A DNA stretch of 36,696 nt from Candidatus Poribacteria bacterium. Its GTDB lineage: Bacteria > Poribacteria > WGA-4E > WGA-3G. The notes below the pieces were generated by a model. It was not told where the DNA came from. It saw only the letters and a program-made list of their open reading frames with translations, and searched no databases. Positions 2,555 to 26,055 of the stretch are shown in pieces. Made by a program: the position numbers and the translations under genes. Location: positions 1-36,696 of the forward strand of contig JAJDWI010000096.1 in assembly GCA_022825665.1 (NCBI GenBank). The letters are read 5' to 3'. Every line of letters begins with the position of its first letter. Within the stretch, counting starts at the first letter, position 1.

Positions 2555-4876
2555 TTATCTCTCCACAATTTGAGCTTCGGCACGAACATTCGCTGCCTCG
2601 CGTTGTGTCTCAACGAGTTTGTAGTAGATACCTTTTTTCTCCATTAGTTCTGCGTGTGATCCGCATTCAACTCCTCTTCCCTTTTCAATTACAAATAACC
2701 TGTCAGCATTTCTAAGTGTTGAAAGTCTATGTGCAATTGCAAAAGTCGTTCGGTTTTGCACCAACCTGTCAATAGCCTGTTGGATTTTCTTTTCAGTTTC
2801 AACATCAACAGACGAGGTGGCTTCATCAAGAATAAGGATGCGTGGGTTGTGTAGAATTGCGCGTGCGATAGAAATGCGCTGTCGTTCACCACCTGAAAGA
2901 CTCCCACCTCTTTCGCCTACTTCTGCATCATAACCATCAGGGAATTTGATGATAAATTCATGAGCATTTGCTGCTTTGGCTGCGGTGATTATTTCCTCCA
3001 TTGTTGCATCAGGATTTGCATAAGCGATGTTTTCTGCAATTGTCCCGCTGAAAAGATATGGTTCCTGTAATACTACGCCAATTTGCCTACGTAAATCTTT
3101 AAGATTTATCTGTTTTATGTCTTCACCATCTATCTCTAAGTTTCCTGAATCTGGAGTATAAAATCGGCATATAAGATTGATAAGTGTTGACTTTCCTGCC
3201 CCTGAGTGTCCAACGAGTCCTATCATCTCACCGGGTTTCACATGAAGATTAATGTCTCTAAGTACCGGTTTGTGTGAATCGTAGCCAAAGGTCATATTGT
3301 GAAACTTTACCTCACCAAGTATATTTGGCATTGCTTTTAGGTTTCCATCGTCATATTGTTCCGGTTGTGAGTCTATCACTTCAAAAAGTCGTTCGGCTGC
3401 GGTCATAGAACGAGATGCCCAATTGATGAGTGGACTGATATACCGCAATGGTCCGTAGAACATCGTGAGATATGCATTAAATGCGATCAAAGTTCCAAGT
3501 GTCATTGAGTCACCGAGAACATCAAGTCCACCTACATACCAAACTATGAGAGAACCTAAATTGACAGCCAACATGAGTGGTGGATAATAGGTTGCCCAAA
3601 TCATTTCTGCTTTAGTTTCATAGTCCCGTGTATCAACATTTGCCACGTCAAATCTGTTAACCTCACTGACTTGTTGTCCGAATGCGCGAACGACACGTAT
3701 ACCGGATACGGAATCATTGACAACATCAAATAATTTTGAACGACGTCTCCAAGCGCGATGCCAGAGACTACGGACCTTTCTCCAAAACCAGCCTCCCCCA
3801 ACAACAATAACTGGAATTGGTATTAGGACGAAAAAAGCAAGTTGCCAATCCATCATAAAGAGCAGAACACCAATCCCAAATATCACAAACAATTCTCTAC
3901 CAAGGAACGATAATCCTTCTAACATGAAGTCTTGTAACCTTTCACTATCCTCCGTAATATGAGAAATGACAGTACCTGTTGTGCGTTTGTCAAAGAATCT
4001 GATAGAGAGATTATGCAGATGCTCGTAAACATGTTCACGTATATTTGCTGCGATTCTGAGGGTCAACCATGCGCTCAATCGTGATTGTAGGACGATGAAC
4101 AATGTACTGATTAGATGTGTTGCTAACAGCGCACCTGTCGCTATTGACAATGCCATAGCTGCAGGTCGTATAGCGCGGAAAATAGCACCTAACCATGTCG
4201 TTTCTCCATCGGGTGCTTGGATGTTTGCTTCGTTAAGCAGCAAAATATCGTCAACAAGGATTCGAAAGAAATAAGGTGGGATCAGAGAAATCAATGTGCC
4301 TATGATGACAAAAAGAATAAAGATTATTGCCCGTCCCTTATAGGGTTTCATGTATGACACAATACGTAACATTACTCTGTGCTTTTTTGTACATGCCGGA
4401 CAGGGAGAGTATTCATCTACCAGTGGCAGCCCACAGGTTTTACAGGAATGTTCCTCAATCTTATAGTCCCAAAGTGGTGGTTCATCTCGTTCACCATCAC
4501 GGAACGCTATTTCATCTCCTATGAATCGTGCTACAAAACCGAATTTTGCCGCACAACCGTTCGAGTATCTGATTAGGTCTACCGTGCCTTCTTGAGTTTC
4601 CAGCACAAGAAGACCTGCATCAACGACCATTTCAGCACGAATGCCAAAAACACTCTGATAGGGTATATAGTGAATTACCTCACCTTTACCCGTTACGGTA
4701 AATATTGCTGCATCGGTTAAGACAAACCATTCTTCACCGAATGTGCCTGTTGAAATCACATCGCTTTTGACAGAGAATCGTATCTCGTTAAATTGGATAT
4801 CCAGTGTCTTTAATGTTTCTTCAATTGATTTGGGCAGCTCATCAAGCGTACCCGTTGGTGTGTCTGCGGTTGACAT
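2555..4876 (-). CDS. ABC exporter (fused permease-ATPase) with PH-like and zinc-ribbon N-terminus
   Basis: 773 residues, about 170 longer than a standard MsbA/LmrA-type half transporter. Residues about 25-125 are beta-rich and PH-like. A C4 zinc ribbon follows (C145-x2-C148 and C159-x2-C162), then a six-helix exporter membrane domain (about 180-500), then the nucleotide-binding domain with Walker A GHSGAGKST, signature LSGGERQR, Walker B ILILDEAT and switch histidine in AHRLST. All ATPase motifs are intact, so an active ATP-driven exporter in the inner membrane is expected; the substrate is unknown. The start ATG 4876 has AAGGA 5 bases upstream. The N-terminal region plus adjacent DUF1854 gene define a specific subfamily rather than a generic lipid flippase. 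Confidence 0.9.
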   Translation of the reverse strand: MSTADTPTGTLDELPKSIEETLKTLDIQFNEIRFSVKSDVISTGTFGEEWFVLTDAAIFTVTGKGEVIHYIPYQSVFGIRAEMVVDAGLLVLETQEGTVDLIRYSNGCAAKFGFVARFIGDEIAFRDGERDEPPLWDYKIEEHSCKTCGLPLVDEYSPCPACTKKHRVMLRIVSYMKPYKGRAIIFILFVIIGTLISLIPPYFFRILVDDILLLNEANIQAPDGETTWLGAIFRAIRPAAMALSIATGALLATHLISTLFIVLQSRLSAWLTLRIAANIREHVYEHLHNLSIRFFDKRTTGTVISHITEDSERLQDFMLEGLSFLGRELFVIFGIGVLLFMMDWQLAFFVLIPIPVIVVGGGWFWRKVRSLWHRAWRRRSKLFDVVNDSVSGIRVVRAFGQQVSEVNRFDVANVDTRDYETKAEMIWATYYPPLMLAVNLGSLIVWYVGGLDVLGDSMTLGTLIAFNAYLTMFYGPLRYISPLINWASRSMTAAERLFEVIDSQPEQYDDGNLKAMPNILGEVKFHNMTFGYDSHKPVLRDINLHVKPGEMIGLVGHSGAGKSTLINLICRFYTPDSGNLEIDGEDIKQINLKDLRRQIGVVLQEPYLFSGTIAENIAYANPDATMEEIITAAKAANAHEFIIKFPDGYDAEVGERGGSLSGGERQRISIARAILHNPRILILDEATSSVDVETEKKIQQAIDRLVQNRTTFAIAHRLSTLRNADRLFVIEKGRGVECGSHAELMEKKGIYYKLVETQREAANVRAEAQIVER

Positions 4877-18004: not shown

Positions 18005-18829
18005 ATGTCAACTGAATCTAATAAAACATCAAAACAAGCTGCAGAAAGTTTCCGAGCAATCCCCGTCTCTACACCAGAAAACCTTTCTAACATAAGGATT
18101 ATCCTCTTTGAACCACGCGAACCCGGTAACATTGGGTCAGTTGCAAGGGTTGTAAAAGGGATGGGATTATCCGAACTATATCTCGTCAATCCGGTTCCGT
18201 TTCAAAATGAGGATGCTGCCTTTCGTATGGCACATGGTGCAAGAGATATTCTGAAGAACTGCATTGTTGTCCCAGAACTAAAAGATGCACTTGATGGTAT
18301 AAAATACCTTGTCGGAACAACCCATCGTAGACGTGATGCACGTTTACCCGATCCTGTGACTGCACGTGAAGCTGCAAACACAATTGCATCCGTTTCACAG
18401 GATAAAACTGTTGCCCTACTATTTGGACGCGAAGACTTCGGTTTATCTACTGATCAGTTAAGTTTATGTCAGTTGACTGCAAGTGTGCCTATGGCAACAA
18501 AAAATCCGTCTCTGAATTTAGCACAAGCAGTACAGATATTCGCGTATGAGGTATTTATTGCGAGTATAGATGAACATACTCCTGATGCGTTAGATTATGT
18601 TGATGTTAATGCTTTAGAGGAGTTTTATGAACGGGTTGTGCGATTGTTAGATAAGGTTGGTGTGATTCCGTATAATCAGGATTGGGAGACGTATTTGAAA
18701 TCTTTACGACGTGTCTTTTCCCGCGCGCCACTTGAAGAACGAGATATTGCAACGCTTGATATGATCTTCTCTACAGCATATCGGCATATAGTGCGGTTAG
18801 AAAAAGAGATAGGATTGACAGAAAAGTAA
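18005..18829 (+). CDS. trmJ: TrmJ-like RNA 2'-O-methyltransferase (SpoU/TrmH family)
   Basis: 274 residues. SPOUT-class knotted methyltransferase using S-adenosylmethionine; TrmJ methylates the ribose at tRNA position 32. Motif 1 is EPGNIGSVARV (N42, R48), motif 2 LLFGREDFGLS (139-148) and motif 3 PSLNLAQAVQIFAYE (168-182), all intact. The C-terminal extension of about 90 residues matches the TrmJ dimer-associated tail and ends RHIVRLEKEIGLTEK. No clear Shine-Dalgarno sequence precedes ATG 18005. The last 22 codons have a diverged, displaced second copy downstream of the next gene (20471-20528), which suggests that this 3' end was supplied by an insertion. Confidence 0.88.
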   Translation: MSTESNKTSKQAAESFRAIPVSTPENLSNIRIILFEPREPGNIGSVARVVKGMGLSELYLVNPVPFQNEDAAFRMAHGARDILKNCIVVPELKDALDGIKYLVGTTHRRRDARLPDPVTAREAANTIASVSQDKTVALLFGREDFGLSTDQLSLCQLTASVPMATKNPSLNLAQAVQIFAYEVFIASIDEHTPDALDYVDVNALEEFYERVVRLLDKVGVIPYNQDWETYLKSLRRVFSRAPLEERDIATLDMIFSTAYRHIVRLEKEIGLTEK

Positions 18830-18875
18830 CAAGCAGATTCAGTAGGTTTTAGACTGCAACGTTATTGAGGAAAAC

Positions 18876-20465
18876 ATGAAGACATTTGGCACTCACGGTC
18901 CCGTGAATCCTGAAGATCATTACGTTGTTTCACGCAGTGAGGAACTTGCTGATTTCATCAACCGCGTCGAGCAGGGACGATATATTGTAATATTTGCACC
19001 ACGACAGACAGGGAAAACGACATTTTTTCAATGGGCTCTTGATGCGCTCACAGTCGATTCCACAGAGAAATACTTTCCTGTTGAACTAAATTTTCAGATT
19101 TATGAAGACTATAGTGCGTCCGATTTTTATGCCTCACTTTGTAAAAGGATTTTTGAGCAGATTAGACGCGTTTTTCAAAAACGCGATATGGTCCTTTCTG
19201 AAGATTTAACCCAATTCTTAGAGAACACAAAGATAACTGATCAGGTTACAATGCTGGAATTCTTTCAACGTTTCGGTGCATTTCTTGGAGATGAGAAATT
19301 AGTTCTCATCATTGACGAATTTGATGGCATTCCTCGTGATGCCGTGAACGGTTTCCTGAATGCACTCCGCACTATATATGTTCAACGTTCTATGCGTGAA
19401 TGTCCCTACAGTATCGGTATTGTAGGGGTTAAGAGCATAACACAACTTAATCTTAACCGCTCAATTTCACCGTTCAATATCCAGGACGAGTTCACTTTGC
19501 CGAACTTCACATTTGAACAGGTGTGTGAGTTACTTGCACAGTATACGGATGAGGTAGGTCAAACCTTTGAACCTGAGGTTATTGAGAATATACATAGACA
19601 GACTGCTGGACAACCTTTCCTTGTCAACAGATTCGCACAGATTCTCACGGAAGAGATGAATATTCCCAAAACAGAGACAATTACGATGTCGCACTTTTCA
19701 CAAGCACACATAGAAATCAGTGAAGAAGATAACGCGAACCTAACACATCTGATGACCAATATCCGTAGAGACCCTCGCTATAAAAACATCCTGATGCGAA
19801 TCGTATCTTATGAAAGGGGTATACGTTTCAACCCACGCCGAGAAATTATCAGTGAACTTGCTACACTTGGTGTTATCGGAAAGGCATTGGATGGAATGTG
19901 TCAAATTGTCAATCCGATTTACCAGTATTGTATCCTGCATGCGTTCAAACCTGAGATGAATGGACTTGAGCAGGACTATCTTCCAGAAGACACCGATTTT
20001 CTGGACTACCTCACACCGTCAGGACAGATTAATATGGAATTGCTTCTTGACAATTTCCAAAATTTCATTGCACGTGTCGGGTTTCGGATACTTCAAGTCC
20101 CTGAAACACCGAAAGAATATATCGGACAAGACCTCCTCTACGCCTATCTTGACCAGTTTGTCAGTATAATTCGCGGTGCGATGTTCCTTGAAGCACAAAC
20201 GGGACGTGGTAGGATGGATATGATTATCTTTCACAACGGACATAAGTATATCGTTGAAACAAAGATTTGGGAGGGTCAACGGCAGTATGATGCAGGTAAG
20301 AATCAACTGTCCGCATATCTCAAATTAGAACGTGTGTCTGAAGGGTATTACGTTGTATTCGATCATCATGCGGAACCTGAACCCCGTATAGAAACAGAGA
20401 CGATAGATGAGGTGTCTATCCGATGCTATGTTATACCTGTAGTGCAGGAAGTTCCTTCTCAATAG
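18876..20465 (+). CDS. AAA-like ATPase fused to a PD-(D/E)XK nuclease domain
   Basis: 529 residues. Residues about 10-260 are a STAND/AAA-like P-loop domain with Walker A APRQTGKTT (K47) and Walker B LVLIIDEFD (D147, E148); a winged-helix-like segment follows to about 350. The C-terminal domain (about 385-520) carries the nuclease pattern RMDMII (D448), then VETKIW (E461, K463) and NQLSAYL (Q477), as in the PD-(D/E)XK family 9 (DUF1703-type) domains attached to AAA-like ATPases of unknown function. All catalytic residues are present. It begins 46 bases after trmJ and ends 5 bases before a displaced trmJ 3' fragment, so it appears to be a single-gene insertion. Role in mobility, defence or regulation is unproven. 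Confidence 0.8.
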   Translation: MKTFGTHGPVNPEDHYVVSRSEELADFINRVEQGRYIVIFAPRQTGKTTFFQWALDALTVDSTEKYFPVELNFQIYEDYSASDFYASLCKRIFEQIRRVFQKRDMVLSEDLTQFLENTKITDQVTMLEFFQRFGAFLGDEKLVLIIDEFDGIPRDAVNGFLNALRTIYVQRSMRECPYSIGIVGVKSITQLNLNRSISPFNIQDEFTLPNFTFEQVCELLAQYTDEVGQTFEPEVIENIHRQTAGQPFLVNRFAQILTEEMNIPKTETITMSHFSQAHIEISEEDNANLTHLMTNIRRDPRYKNILMRIVSYERGIRFNPRREIISELATLGVIGKALDGMCQIVNPIYQYCILHAFKPEMNGLEQDYLPEDTDFLDYLTPSGQINMELLLDNFQNFIARVGFRILQVPETPKEYIGQDLLYAYLDQFVSIIRGAMFLEAQTGRGRMDMIIFHNGHKYIVETKIWEGQRQYDAGKNQLSAYLKLERVSEGYYVVFDHHAEPEPRIETETIDEVSIRCYVIPVVQEVPSQ

Positions 20466-20470
20466 ACATC

Positions 20471-20528
20471 ATAATCTTCTCTACGACATATTGTGCGGTT
20501 GGAGAAGCAGGTAGGAGATTCTGCTTGA
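20471..20528 (+). pseudogene. Displaced second copy of the trmJ 3' end
   Basis: ATAATCTTCTCTAC (20471-20484) matches 18761-18774 at 13 of 14 bases. After an 8-base deletion relative to trmJ, the frame from 20484 reads RHIVRLEKQVGDSA and a TGA stop, against RHIVRLEKEIGLTEK in trmJ. Of the seven codon differences in the first eleven codons, five are synonymous and two are conservative (E to Q, I to V), so the copies diverged while under protein-level selection. The fragment begins 5 bases after the stop of the ATPase-nuclease gene. Confidence 0.75.
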
Positions 20529-20750
20529 AATATTGGGAATGCTGGCGTATTATAGTATATACTGCTATAGTTGAGTTATTATAAGATGATTACTATTCAG
20601 AATTGAAAGAGTTACAAGTTCTCCAATTATATATCAGAATTGTCTGCTGTTAGTATAAGAACTTCATACCACATTCGAGGTTGATACAAAGACACAATTC
20701 ATACCACACAATATAGTAGAGTTCTTAGAATTAAAATAGACATTGATAAA
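20529..20750. other. Intergenic stretch before the spermidine-synthase-like gene
   Basis: About 220 AT-rich bases with no open reading frame that looks real. It holds the palindrome AGTATATACT near 20555 and presumably the promoter of the next gene, for which I see no convincing -35/-10 pair. Confidence 0.3.
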
Positions 20751-23700
20751 ATGCGACATATAAAACCCATCGTTTGGCTCATCTTTATATTATCTGGTGC
20801 GAGTGCACTCATCTATGAAGTAATATGGATGCGTCAACTAACACTTGTCTTCGGCAGTACTGTATTTGCGACAAGCACGGTACTAACCGCATTCATGGCA
20901 GGACTTGCCCTCGGTAGTTTCTACTTTGGTAGAAAGATTGATGAAGGTAATATGTCACCCCTGAAACTCTATGCACTCCTTGAGGTAGGCATCGGTGGAT
21001 TTTGCATCATTTGGCCTCTGCTTCTAAGCGTCCTCACAGCCATATATGTTCTCATCAACCGACATATTACATCTGAATTCTATCTTCTTTCTCTTATCCG
21101 CTTTATTCTCACGTTTGGAATTTTGCTTATTCCTTCAACATTGATGGGTGGAACGTTACCTGTATTGACACGATTTTTTGTCAAAAGGTTAGAACAACTT
21201 GGTACTAACATAGGTGTTTTATATGCGTTAAATACGTTTGGCGCGGTTATTGGGACAGTTGCTGCAGGATTTTTCTTGATACAGGCGTTAGGGGTTCAAT
21301 GGTCTCTCCGTGTAGCAATTGCAATAAATCTCGGTGTTGCGTTGGTTGCATGGGTAATTGCAAGACATGCAGAAAGAATGAAGTCAGATGAAGAGGAAAC
21401 TGAGATTGAACAGGAGGATATAGAATCGGAAGAACAACAGACAGAAGCACCTTTACTTTCATCTGAGGAAGTCAGCATACAGGAACGCCACTTTGTTTTG
21501 TGGGCAATAGGTATATCGGGTTTCTGTGCTTTGGCGTATGAGGTGCTGTGGACACGTATTCTCGTATTTTTTCTTGGCAGTACGACTTATGCATTTGCAA
21601 CAATGCTCGCTGCCTTCCTATTCGGAATTGCATTGGGTAGTATGGTTTTTGCACGGTGGGTTGATCGTATAAAACAACCTATTATTACCTTTGGGTTGGC
21701 GCAACTTGGTATAGGTTTATTTGCACTTATCCTTATGCCTGCATTTGAGCAGCTATATGGGATGACATACGCACTTCAGTCTACCTTTGGTGCGAGTAGA
21801 TTCTGGACATTCTTTTCAAGTTTCCTTGTTATGAGTGTTCCGACATTTCTGATGGGAGCCAGTTTTCCTTTGGTTACTAAAATATATACAGGCAATGCGC
21901 AGCAACTCGGTAGAAGCATTGGGAATGTGTATGCAGTCAATACCGTCGGGAGTATATTAGGGGCATTTTGTGCAGGATTTATCCTGATACCCTTATTGAA
22001 TATCCGACCGAGTATTGTTTTGACAGTAGCGTTGAATACAGGTATTGGGTGTCTTCTTGTCTTAAGAGGATGGCAATCAAAAGTTGATGCTGAAAGTGAT
22101 TCTACAGGTAGCGGAACGAAGGGATTATTGCAAGGTATAGGTATCGGAGTACCTATTATTACTGTTGGATTAGCAATTGTCGTATTACTAACTCTAAATC
22201 AACCGCTGTTCATAAAAAGCACCATTTATAAAACACAAAGACCCGGTGATGATGTTGTTGATTATAAGGAGGAGGTAGATGCGACGGTAACAACATTAAA
22301 AGATGATGAAGGTGTCTATCGTCTCTATGTAGATGCGAATCAAGCAGCAGATGCATCACGTTGGGATTCTCCTTCACACCGAGTCATTGCTCATCTTCCA
22401 TTGTTGCTACATCCGAACCCGGAACGCGCACTGGTTGTCGGTTTTGGTATGGGTCTTACTTCCTATTCCATTACACAACACGGAGTCAAAGTTGATGCTA
22501 TTGAATTATCCAAAGGTGTTATTTCTGCTGCACAGAAACATTTCACACATATCAATGGCAATGTATTTGATAATCGACTTTTTAACTATAAGGTCAATGA
22601 TGGACGCAATCATATTTTGATGACTCAAACCAAATATGATATGATCTCAACAGGTATTATACACCCACTTGTGAGTGCCGGAAGTTCTAATATATATACA
22701 AAAGACTTTTACAAGTTGTGCAGAAGAATTTTGACTGAGGATGGTGTGATGTGCCAATGGGTCCCGCTGCATCGGTTACCAGAGTCTCACTATAAGATGA
22801 TTGTTAGGACTTTTATTTCTGTTTTTCCAGAAACCACATTATGGTATAAATATACACCCGATTTTGTGATATTAATTGGCACTCAAAATCCACTTACAAT
22901 TAATTACAAAGACTTTATTGTCCGAAGTAAGAAACCGAGTATCCGTGAAGGACTCGCTGCAGATGACCTTGATGGTATGTCTCTATTAGATTCATTTATG
23001 ATGGGACCGAAAGCAGTAAAAGAGTATGCTGGTGTTGGACCTATTCACACTGATGACCGTCCCCGATTAGAATTTTTCAAGGCTGAAGATTTAACAAGTT
23101 CTACCGCAGATAATATTAAGGGAATGAAAATATATCGTCAACATGTGAGACCACCATTTCTGAGAAACTACGGGACAACGTTTGAAGAAAGGAAGACAGT
23201 ACAGGATAAATTAGATACCTATTTTAGAGCCACACAAAAGTTAATTGATGGACAGATTGCTTATGCGAATGCACAGAACGAACTTTCGATGGGGAAAGTT
23301 AACAACTTTAAAAACCAACTTGAAACAGCAAGTATGTTAATGACCGAGGCGATCAGAATAAATCCAGAGGACGAAACACTTCGATATAATTACGGAGTTG
23401 TCAGTGGTATAATACGTGAAGATGATTTGGAACAATTGCGACGTATTGAACAACAGGTAAAACTTGCTTTGCAGCAAAACCCGGATGATATCCAAGGATA
23501 CCTACAGTTAGCAGTAGTATATGAAGGGATTGCAAGAGAGTATGAGAGAAGGGGTAATAATGCATTAGCAGCAAAAGAACTTGCAAAGGCTTCTACAGAA
23601 CTTGAGAAATTACTTCAGCGTGATCCAAGTAGAATAGATGTTTTTGTCATCCTTGGACCAATATACCAACGTCAAAACCTATACAGAGAAGCACTGCGAA

Positions 23701-24023
23701 CCTATGAACGGCTTGAACAGTTAGATTCTGACTTACCTGCTCTAATTTTCGCTACTATGGCAGAACTACATTTGACACTGGAAAATGTTGATGAAGCAAA
23801 AAGATATGCACAAAAGGGTTTAGATACAGATAATAATTCTTGGCGTTCACACCATGTCCTCGGAAGAGTGTATAATGCAATGAATCAACCCAATAAACTT
23901 CTTGAACATTATACTAATGCTATAAACATATTAGATGATGAAATACCTCATTCAGCAGATCCAAGTAATTTGCTTAGTTATAGAGAAGAAATACAAAATG
24001 AACTTGATCAGATAAAAAAATAG
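20751..24023 (+). CDS. Membrane-fused spermidine-synthase-like protein with TPR tail
   Basis: 1090 residues. Two homologous membrane halves (about 1-205 and 245-490, each with an SGxxALxYEVxWxR start, AxFxxGxALGS and PTxLMGxxFP motifs) are joined by an acidic linker. A Rossmann aminopropyltransferase-like domain follows at about 500-720 (VVGFGMG near 562, SNIYTKDFY, MCQWVPLH), then a TPR-type helical tail (about 830-1090). This is the fused MFS/spermidine synthase architecture. The catalytic Asp of true spermidine synthases (YDVIIxD) is replaced: here YDMISTGIIHP. So polyamine synthesis is doubtful and a membrane-linked role is more likely. The next gene, aspS, starts 19 bases later with GGAGG upstream, suggesting cotranscription. 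Confidence 0.85.
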   Translation: MRHIKPIVWLIFILSGASALIYEVIWMRQLTLVFGSTVFATSTVLTAFMAGLALGSFYFGRKIDEGNMSPLKLYALLEVGIGGFCIIWPLLLSVLTAIYVLINRHITSEFYLLSLIRFILTFGILLIPSTLMGGTLPVLTRFFVKRLEQLGTNIGVLYALNTFGAVIGTVAAGFFLIQALGVQWSLRVAIAINLGVALVAWVIARHAERMKSDEEETEIEQEDIESEEQQTEAPLLSSEEVSIQERHFVLWAIGISGFCALAYEVLWTRILVFFLGSTTYAFATMLAAFLFGIALGSMVFARWVDRIKQPIITFGLAQLGIGLFALILMPAFEQLYGMTYALQSTFGASRFWTFFSSFLVMSVPTFLMGASFPLVTKIYTGNAQQLGRSIGNVYAVNTVGSILGAFCAGFILIPLLNIRPSIVLTVALNTGIGCLLVLRGWQSKVDAESDSTGSGTKGLLQGIGIGVPIITVGLAIVVLLTLNQPLFIKSTIYKTQRPGDDVVDYKEEVDATVTTLKDDEGVYRLYVDANQAADASRWDSPSHRVIAHLPLLLHPNPERALVVGFGMGLTSYSITQHGVKVDAIELSKGVISAAQKHFTHINGNVFDNRLFNYKVNDGRNHILMTQTKYDMISTGIIHPLVSAGSSNIYTKDFYKLCRRILTEDGVMCQWVPLHRLPESHYKMIVRTFISVFPETTLWYKYTPDFVILIGTQNPLTINYKDFIVRSKKPSIREGLAADDLDGMSLLDSFMMGPKAVKEYAGVGPIHTDDRPRLEFFKAEDLTSSTADNIKGMKIYRQHVRPPFLRNYGTTFEERKTVQDKLDTYFRATQKLIDGQIAYANAQNELSMGKVNNFKNQLETASMLMTEAIRINPEDETLRYNYGVVSGIIREDDLEQLRRIEQQVKLALQQNPDDIQGYLQLAVVYEGIAREYERRGNNALAAKELAKASTELEKLLQRDPSRIDVFVILGPIYQRQNLYREALRTYERLEQLDSDLPALIFATMAELHLTLENVDEAKRYAQKGLDTDNNSWRSHHVLGRVYNAMNQPNKLLEHYTNAINILDDEIPHSADPSNLLSYREEIQNELDQIKK

Positions 24024-24042: not shown

Positions 24043-26055
24043 ATGTCTCAAGAACCTTCATTAAAACGAACTCACTATTGTGGCGATTTACGTTTAAGTG
24101 ATGCTGGTAAAACTGTCCAACTCAACGGTTGGGTTAGACGGCGTCGCGATCATGGTGGTGTGATTTTCGTTGATTTACGTGATAGAAAAGGAATAACGCA
24201 GGTTGTCTTTGATCCACAAATTGATGAAAAAGCACACGCGCTTGCGGACTCGGTTAGAAGTGAGTTTGTCCTGAACGTTAGTGGTATTGTCCGTGAACGT
24301 GCCCCGGGTGAACTACTTTTCAAAGCCGATTTGTCATATCAAAATGAACTCACTAACAACACATCGCTTTCTTCTGAATTCCGTTCCCTTTTTTCTGATT
24401 TAGATACCAAATACACACTTTCAGATGATACAAAAATAAGTGTTCGTGAAAATGACAAACGATGGCTTCTCACCGATGTAGATAATAATCGCACCTATGA
24501 TATTGTCAATGAAGAAGATAGTCTTAATTTCTATCAAGGCACTGTGAATCCAGAACTGGATACGGGTGAAATTGAATTGGCAGTTCATTCCCTTAACATA
24601 CTGAATACTGCTAAAACTCCACCATTTCCTGTTGAAGATGATATTGAGGTTGCAGAAGATACCCGTATGCGTTATAGGTTCATTGATTTGCGCCGACCTG
24701 ATATGCAGAAAACGCTCGAGATGCGTCATAAAGCAACACATGCAGCGCGAAACTATATGAATGAGCAAGGTTTTCTTGAAATTGAGACTCCTATTTTGAT
24801 GAATAGCACACCTGAAGGTGCGCGCGATGTTCTCGTGCCAAGTCGTTACTATCCAGGTAAGTTCTATGCGCTACCACAATCACCACAGCAGTTCAAGCAG
24901 ATATTGATGATGAGCGGGGTTGATCGTTATTTTCAGATTGCCCGTTGTTTTCGCGATGAAGATACCCGTGCTGATAGACAGCTTGAATTCACGCAAATTG
25001 ATATTGAGATGTCTTTTGCGGGTGTTGATGATGTGCTTGAAGTCACTGAAGGTTTGATGAAGAGGATATTTGAGGATGCAGGGAACATTCCTGTCGAAAC
25101 ACCTTTCCTACGTCTGCCATATCATGAATCAATGGCAAGGTTTGGCAATGATAAACCTGATACACGATTTGGTATGGAGTTAACCGATCTTTCTGATGTA
25201 ATGGCAGATTGCGATTTTCAAGTGTTCACACGAGCAATTTCATCAGGTGGACAGGTGAAAGGTATTGCTGTTCCCGGTGGTGCAGATTTCTCAAGAAAAG
25301 ATATTGATGATTTGACTGCGTTTGTTGCTACCTACCGTGCAAAGGGATTAGCATGGGTTAAAATTACCTCAGATGGTTTCTCGTCGGGTATTGTCAAGTT
25401 TTTCAAACCTGAGCAACTTGAAACAGCACGGGAGCGTATGGGTGCGAAGGAAGGTGACATCATGTTCTTCGTTGCAGATCGTCCGAAAGTTGTCGCGGAT
25501 GCACTCGGCAATTTACGGCTACATCTTGGACGAAAACTGAACTTGATCGATGAAAATCAGTATAACTTTCTGTGGATTGTGGATTATCCGTTATTTGAGT
25601 GGAACGAAGATGAGAACCGTTATGAGCCTTTTCATCATCTGTTTACTAGCGCAACTGATGAGACTCTACCACTATTAGATTCTGATCCAGGTAAGGTTCA
25701 GAGCCAACATTATGATCTAGTGTGTAACGGTTCTGAAATATGTAGTGGTAGTGTGAGAATACATCAATGGGATATTCAACAGAAGATATTCGATATTCTG
25801 AAAATTAAACCTGAAGAGGTAGAAAGCAGATTTGGATATTTTATACATGCCTTAGAATATGGCACACCACCACATGCTGGGATCGCACCGGGACTTGACC
25901 GAATTGTGATGTTAATGCGGAATGAAGAAAACATACGCGAGGTAATTGCATTTCCAAAATCTCAACAAGGAATGTGCTTACTGACGCATGCACCATCTAA
26001 TGTGTCTGAGGAACAATTGGAAGAGTTGTCAATACGTGTTGATGTTGATGAATGA
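24043..26055 (+). CDS. aspS: Aspartyl-tRNA synthetase with an inserted domain
   Basis: 670 residues against about 590 for bacterial AspRS. Charges tRNA-Asp (possibly also tRNA-Asn if non-discriminating) with aspartate. The OB-fold anticodon domain opens the protein (GWVRRRRDHGGVIFVDLRD), and the class II core has motif 2 FRDEDTRADRQLEFTQID (near 302) and motif 3 GIAPGLDRIVML (near 611); the bacterial GAD insertion region lies between them. Residues about 91-167 have no counterpart in E. coli AspRS, falling between GIVRERAPGE and ELDTGEIEL inside the OB domain. The reading frame is intact across it, so it is a true insertion and not a frameshift. GGAGG precedes ATG 24043. Confidence 0.97.
   Translation: MSQEPSLKRTHYCGDLRLSDAGKTVQLNGWVRRRRDHGGVIFVDLRDRKGITQVVFDPQIDEKAHALADSVRSEFVLNVSGIVRERAPGELLFKADLSYQNELTNNTSLSSEFRSLFSDLDTKYTLSDDTKISVRENDKRWLLTDVDNNRTYDIVNEEDSLNFYQGTVNPELDTGEIELAVHSLNILNTAKTPPFPVEDDIEVAEDTRMRYRFIDLRRPDMQKTLEMRHKATHAARNYMNEQGFLEIETPILMNSTPEGARDVLVPSRYYPGKFYALPQSPQQFKQILMMSGVDRYFQIARCFRDEDTRADRQLEFTQIDIEMSFAGVDDVLEVTEGLMKRIFEDAGNIPVETPFLRLPYHESMARFGNDKPDTRFGMELTDLSDVMADCDFQVFTRAISSGGQVKGIAVPGGADFSRKDIDDLTAFVATYRAKGLAWVKITSDGFSSGIVKFFKPEQLETARERMGAKEGDIMFFVADRPKVVADALGNLRLHLGRKLNLIDENQYNFLWIVDYPLFEWNEDENRYEPFHHLFTSATDETLPLLDSDPGKVQSQHYDLVCNGSEICSGSVRIHQWDIQQKIFDILKIKPEEVESRFGYFIHALEYGTPPHAGIAPGLDRIVMLMRNEENIREVIAFPKSQQGMCLLTHAPSNVSEEQLEELSIRVDVDE

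Follow-up and report, generated by a model that had tools for sequence, protein, structure and literature searches.

An ATPase-nuclease gene in the 3' end of trmJ in Candidatus Poribacteria, with the original gene end displaced downstream

The trmJ locus and its ATPase-nuclease gene

The window analysed here, 36,696 nucleotides in length, is a single contig from a Candidatus Poribacteria bacterium associated with sponges, whose assembly totals 4.5 Mb; the closest named relatives with the same locus are metagenome-assembled genomes of Candidatus Poribacteria. The features of the locus all lie on the forward strand. The gene that hosts the insertion is trmJ (18005–18829), encoding a SpoU-family tRNA 2'-O-methyltransferase (Pfam SpoU_methylase, 3e-28; NCBIfam TIGR00050 TrmJ/YjtD, 188 bits, above its cut-off). 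Its last five codons and stop, GGATTGACAGAAAAGTAA (18812–18829), are followed by a 46-nt leader (18830–18875), identical in the closest relative, G014, and by a gene for an AAA+ ATPase of 529 residues with a PD-(D/E)XK nuclease domain (18876–20465; Pfam AAA_35, 2e-19; NERD, PDDEXK_9 and PDDEXK_3 weak). Roughly the last 20 codons of trmJ recur 3' of the ATPase stop, at 20469–20528, where after one 8-base gap the copy reads ...HIVRLEKQVGDSA-stop. A putative sigma70-like promoter, TTGAAA-17-TATTAT (20525–20553), overlaps the stop codon of this copy with its –35 element and precedes a spermidine-synthase-like gene (20751–24023), which shows TPR-like repeats by eye and is the likely user of that promoter.

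Two further observations concern this region. A small hairpin may form in the leader and its counterparts in g1 relatives, several of which have the sequence CAGACA...TGTCTG there. The aspartyl-tRNA synthetase gene (24043–26055) encodes about 75 extra residues (about 90–164) compared with relatives in other families of the order, so that its match to them splits into 5–89 and 165–668.

The motif residues of both domains are conserved: K47 (Walker A), D147 and E148 (Walker B), and D448, E461 and K463 (nuclease) do not vary among 33 aligned family members, nor in any trmJ-locus copy that can be read at these positions. AAA_35 matches the window protein with 70 bits, and PDDEXK_9 with 14–16 bits, below the cut-off of 25.5. 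Searches with the sequence found no relative in the PDB and no match in NCBIfam. A fold search with the predicted structure (mean pLDDT 79) returned the P. abyssi ATPase 2qen as closest (E 6e-10), then Avs3 (E 4e-7). The predicted fold thus appears to share the P-loop ATPase core, of the signal-transduction or archaeal ATPase kind, of 2qen and of the Avs3-type STAND NTPase-nuclease defence proteins; the TM-scores are low, however (0.42 for 2qen and 0.34 for Avs3, by query length), and matches to a defence library are weak and partial only.

A closer parallel in overall plan is offered by DUF1703 proteins, described as an AAA+ module related to ATPase_2, a helical region and a PD-(D/E)XK domain (PMC1913061). 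DUF1703 genes (AAA-ATPase_like PF09820 with PDDEXK_9 PF08011) are expanded in Cardinium cCpun, where recombination occurs within the gene (PMC6387759). The window family resembles DUF1703 in its N-terminal AAA+ module related to archaeal ATPase_2, its intervening segment and its C-terminal PD-(D/E)XK domain, with Walker motifs and D...ExK residues, as well as in having many divergent paralogs per symbiont genome and recombination inside the gene. The window protein, however, matches AAA_35 and not PF09820, and its PDDEXK_9 match is below cut-off; because it fails the DUF1703 Pfam cut-offs, we regard it as similar in kind and do not class it as a member. The available portions of PMC6387759 and PMC1913061 contain no mention of gene-end insertion for DUF1703, and among open-licence papers we found no description of the trmJ-ATPase locus or of this ATPase family in Poribacteria.

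Genomes of the poribacterial family carry 3 to 20 copies of the ATPase gene. Copies at the trmJ locus form one group, 71–97% identical to the window's, and the others reach at most 69% (80 named loci), the single exception being one G015 copy away from trmJ. This copy is surrounded by a mosaic of fragments from a G013-like trmJ locus, trmJ itself excepted, so that a precise transposition of the gene was rejected as its origin. The preliminary description had suggested a search for duplicated 3' ends of the upstream gene at other copies of the family. We looked at 64 copies elsewhere and found none; repeats in their flanks comprised only tandem neighbours with common promoters or termini and one interspersed repeat. 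End replacement is therefore a feature of the trmJ site and not of the family.

Several of the paralogs have peculiarities of their own. One in the window's genome (L129; G000:C137:7032–8642) has an open frame of 836 residues, compared with 529 for the family, and may have an extra C-terminal part. Tandem ATPase copies about 1.7 kb apart occur at L174, L169 and L162 and as several pairs in G020, and at L174 and L169 a similar promoter-like stretch is repeated in the leader before each copy. A 137-nt repeat-like piece lies 3' of the ATPase gene in G015:C36 (L238, downstream 4605–4741) and is also present at trmJ loci or elsewhere in several other genomes.

Two trmJ ends in occupied, empty and scarred alleles

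The alignment of the downstream copy to the trmJ 3' end scores 38, against a best of 32 among 2000 dinucleotide shuffles and at most 25 elsewhere in the window. The second trmJ end reported in the preliminary description is therefore real, and the coordinates given for it were right. The comparative evidence for a displaced end is far stronger than this lone alignment. We collected trmJ regions from 56 genomes of the family, in four genera, g1–g4. A full or nearly full ATPase-nuclease gene lies directly 3' of trmJ in 40 of them. Seven others (G001, G004, G007, G046, G049, G058, G070) bear deletion scars, with the ATPase gene deleted or reduced and with an occupied-type trmJ end or, in G007 and G049, a trmJ end fused to an ATPase remnant. 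The G043 region ends at a contig border and is uninformative. Eight sites are cleanly empty (G002, G008, G011, G019, G022, G053, G067, G074).

An empty site had been predicted to show a single trmJ end of the displaced type, and all eight do: trmJ ends there in DST or DSA followed by the TGA within CTTGA, which is the reading of the displaced copy, and none matches the upstream end. Every other site with a readable trmJ end differs from the empty type. In most cases the 3' flanks of the empty sites match the sequence that follows the displaced copy. In occupied sites the displaced block was detectable in at least 23 of 40 (score ≥39; control maximum 26), at +1 to +525 from the ATPase stop, and is visible by eye in G018 also. 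The preliminary description had named occupied sites lacking such a fragment as a refutation of its reading. Many do lack it, so that the objection stands in form, but at these sites other DNA has been inserted, the block has decayed or the contig ends.

We located the end of homology by anchoring occupied and empty trmJ genes at their RLE motif. Identity between the two is about 60–89% up to about 18 nt past RLE and then falls to about 15% (RLE+18 to +24 nt), a break that is sharp in g1 and in g2 types a, t and c; empty trmJ ends compared with each other are mostly 78–100% identical in bins over the stop. This abrupt fall, about four codons before the stop, means that the last 4–5 codons of occupied trmJ genes are a real replacement, non-homologous to the empty-site ends. 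Together with the clean empty sites, it bears out the earlier proposal of an insertion that carried a replacement end and displaced the original one. At the G007 locus (L054) a deletion has left trmJ running from RLEEE straight into the final part of the ATPase gene; the last trmJ codons are gone there, so that the tail seems dispensable.

The proposal that the two ends come from trmJ genes that diverged under selection fared less well. As had been noted, differences between them are mainly synonymous: of 11 aligned codons from CGG/CGA, 7 differ, 5 of these synonymously. The g1 displaced copies, however, have an ATG→ATA change in common and differ from one another at all three codon positions, so that their evolution has been that of non-coding DNA descending from a single displaced ancestor. 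With the upstream copy still coding and the displaced copies non-coding, an old insertion explains the synonymous pattern. The extent of what is left varies with the genus. In g1 the displaced copy extends back to –70, and in g4 (G020) a piece from –68 to –25 is retained, giving a direct duplication of about 55 nt in both; in g2 the part that can be recognised runs from about –24 to +44 relative to the old stop. Two genomes have very tight junctions: the ATPase frame of G073 takes the displaced DST-stop as its own end, and in G068 GGATTCTACTTGA follows directly on the ATPase stop.

What is conserved in the displaced block points to a promoter. Its core, ATTC..CTTGA-N18..21-TAnnnT, is sigma70-like, includes the old stop in the –35 and is present in empty sites as well; in the window the elements are TTGAAA at 20525 and TATTAT at 20548. 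In the empty genomes G008, G053, G067 and G074 the ortholog of the downstream, spermidine-synthase-like gene adjoins trmJ and begins 68–86 nt after it. Promoter-like sites are no commoner in the region than in shuffles (8 vs 6.7), so that a scan for such sites counts by itself as no evidence, and promoter function here means a consensus match only. From this pattern of conservation we infer that the displaced piece probably survived owing to a promoter for the next gene.

Exchange of the ATPase gene between hosts

The ATPase gene is exchanged between hosts independently of its flanks. In a tree of aspS, trmJ and the downstream gene, the empty genus g3 lies outside g1, g2 and g4 (84% support), and further empty genomes are nested among occupied ones, G002 and G008+G011 in g1 and G053, G067 and G074 in g2. 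AU tests reject the flank tree for the ATPase gene and the ATPase tree for the flanks (p≤2e-4 for residues 1–250 and far lower for 270–470, with too few replicates for exact values). The sister hosts G062 and G068 have flanks about 96% identical; the DNA identity of their ATPase genes is 83–93% over the first 240 residues and just 58–75% over residues 250–480. Pairwise distances in g2 for residues 270–470 correlate with those of the flanks at r 0.2, compared with 0.88 for flank against flank. This middle segment (19683–20285 in the window) falls into two strongly different allele classes in g2. Alternation between them is independent of the genes on either side, resembling the swapping of a specificity domain.

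The replacement tails mostly follow the host. Tail types are partly clustered on the flank tree, where they need 9 steps compared with a minimum of 3 and a mean of 15.9 after shuffling, and tails with leaders fit the flank and ATPase trees about equally well (7 vs 8 steps). Tail and ATPase gene moved as a unit in G041 and G050, which belong to different host clades and have tail, leader, ATPase gene and 3' flank in common as one block, with trmJ bodies that follow their hosts; in G072, G062/G068 and G071 they did not. Several g1 pairs show a divergence at fourfold sites that is about half as high in the ATPase gene as in the flanks. We considered this as proof of homing and rejected it, since the profiles show mosaic exchange within the gene and exchange of wider blocks. 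What was exchanged has thus largely been segments within the gene or blocks of the locus, the outcome to be expected of general recombination. General recombination accounts for the pattern, and an added homing drive is possible.

Origin of the insertion and its meaning

The best account of the locus, and in our view a probable one, is a single old insertion whose displaced end was kept for its promoter, followed by recombination and loss. Long ago, in an ancestor shared by three of the four sampled genera, a gene from the multi-copy poribacterial ATPase-nuclease family would have entered the trmJ 3' end with about four codons left before the stop. The incoming DNA would have given trmJ a few codons and a stop, pushing the original last codons to the far side of the new gene, where they would have been kept for the –35 region of the downstream gene's promoter as the remainder of the copy decayed, most completely in g2. 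The locus would then have been inherited, with homologous recombination swapping whole blocks or only the ATPase middle and with partial deletion on several occasions. A few lineages would have become cleanly empty again, having deleted what lay between the two ends or acquired an empty allele. Two findings weigh against this history. Because empty genomes are nested in occupied clades, one gain needs about five clean losses or imports; losses would be fewer if the gene had been gained repeatedly at this point. In addition, the g1 displaced copy is better conserved than a neutral relic of such age should be, so that constraint or recent block exchange is needed.

A one-sided homologous import could have produced the same geometry. 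Here a foreign trmJ 3' end with its ATPase gene would have been joined by recombination within trmJ on one side and by illegitimate joining on the other (homology-facilitated illegitimate recombination), leaving the recipient's end downstream and giving the ATPase no active part. Such an event accounts for a trmJ end that is directly duplicated in g1 and g4 and for the non-homologous tail, and the G013-like piece inserted elsewhere in G015 indicates that joins of this kind happen. It requires, however, a donor in which the ATPase gene already followed trmJ, and the new tails resemble no trmJ end seen without an adjoining ATPase gene or deletion scar. As an explanation in its own right we consider it possible but somewhat unlikely; it may instead be a route within the single old insertion, rather than a full alternative to it.

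Some integrative elements enter a gene, for a tRNA or a protein, at its 3' end and rebuild that gene as they do so. The trmJ insertion is like them in lying near the stop, in bringing its own completion of the gene, in displacing the original end downstream and in having clean empty sites. It differs in that the inserted unit holds one gene only, AAA_35 with a weak PD-(D/E)XK domain, in which no recombinase was found, in that we found no conserved termini, attachment core or attachment sites for it, and in that exchange occurs inside the gene. The preliminary description had proposed a single-gene element bounded by inverted 11-mers. These exist and are complementary at 10 of 11 positions, but they are not conserved: the first is common only to the window and G014, with 2–7 of 11 matches in seven other genomes of the genus, and the second is part of the ancestral trmJ end. 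We therefore reject them as termini and, as the 64 copies elsewhere have no end duplication either, find a self-moving element of that design unsupported.

Movement could also be driven by the nuclease. In intronless homing a free-standing endonuclease gene adjoins its target gene, as T4 SegF does, and the trmJ locus is comparable in having a nuclease gene beside a conserved gene, present or absent at one site, with a tree that differs from those of the flanks. A site-specific single-gene element that cuts the intact trmJ end and copies itself with a new end into empty alleles, in repeated gains, would fit the near confinement of one gene lineage to one exact site in 40 of 56 genomes, the nesting of empty alleles among occupied ones, the conflict of the gene tree with both flanks, the block in G041 and G050 and the low ATPase divergence in g1. 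Much of the conflict, however, lies inside the gene (residues 270–470) and not at element borders, the flank and ATPase trees account for tails and leaders about equally well, conserved termini are absent and paralogs elsewhere have no such end replacement. Exchange breakpoints within the gene likewise set the locus apart from intronless homing, and cutting of DNA or of empty sites by this protein is hypothetical. We regard such an element as improbable. Its most specific version earns a similarly sceptical assessment: in it, one point in the trmJ 3' end would be the homing target of a free-standing AAA+ ATPase-PD-(D/E)XK gene, which would cut intact ends, bring a protective recoded end and leave the displaced promoter-bearing end intact, with both neighbours unharmed. 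If it were true, related family members could be specialised for other sites.

A simple local duplication in tandem, with copies of the trmJ end and flank on both sides of the ATPase gene that later diverged, fits the direct order of the repeats and the synonymous differences of the upstream copy, but it is very improbable and largely refuted by the abrupt end of upstream-copy homology four codons before the stop and by a leader in which similarity to the ancestral trmJ 3' flank was undetectable against shuffles (mean z –0.8 to +0.3). By the same shuffle test we rejected the leader as a duplicate of the ancestral promoter flank. An assembly or binning artefact, which the metagenomic origin of all named relatives might suggest, is refuted by the agreement of 40 genomes and by single-contig genomes in both states (G009, G072 and G073 occupied, G074 empty).

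The alleles compared, dozens in all and occupied, empty or scarred, thus document how an accessory gene settled in a tight gene junction, one where the stop codon of one gene overlaps the likely promoter of the next. The promoter half was retained on the far side and the coding half was given a new end, with neither neighbour broken. The locus provides a natural series for asking whether a widespread, little-studied family of ATPase-nucleases, with DUF1703-like expansions in symbionts, is self-moving, and the exchanged middle of the ATPase gene points to a candidate specificity region.
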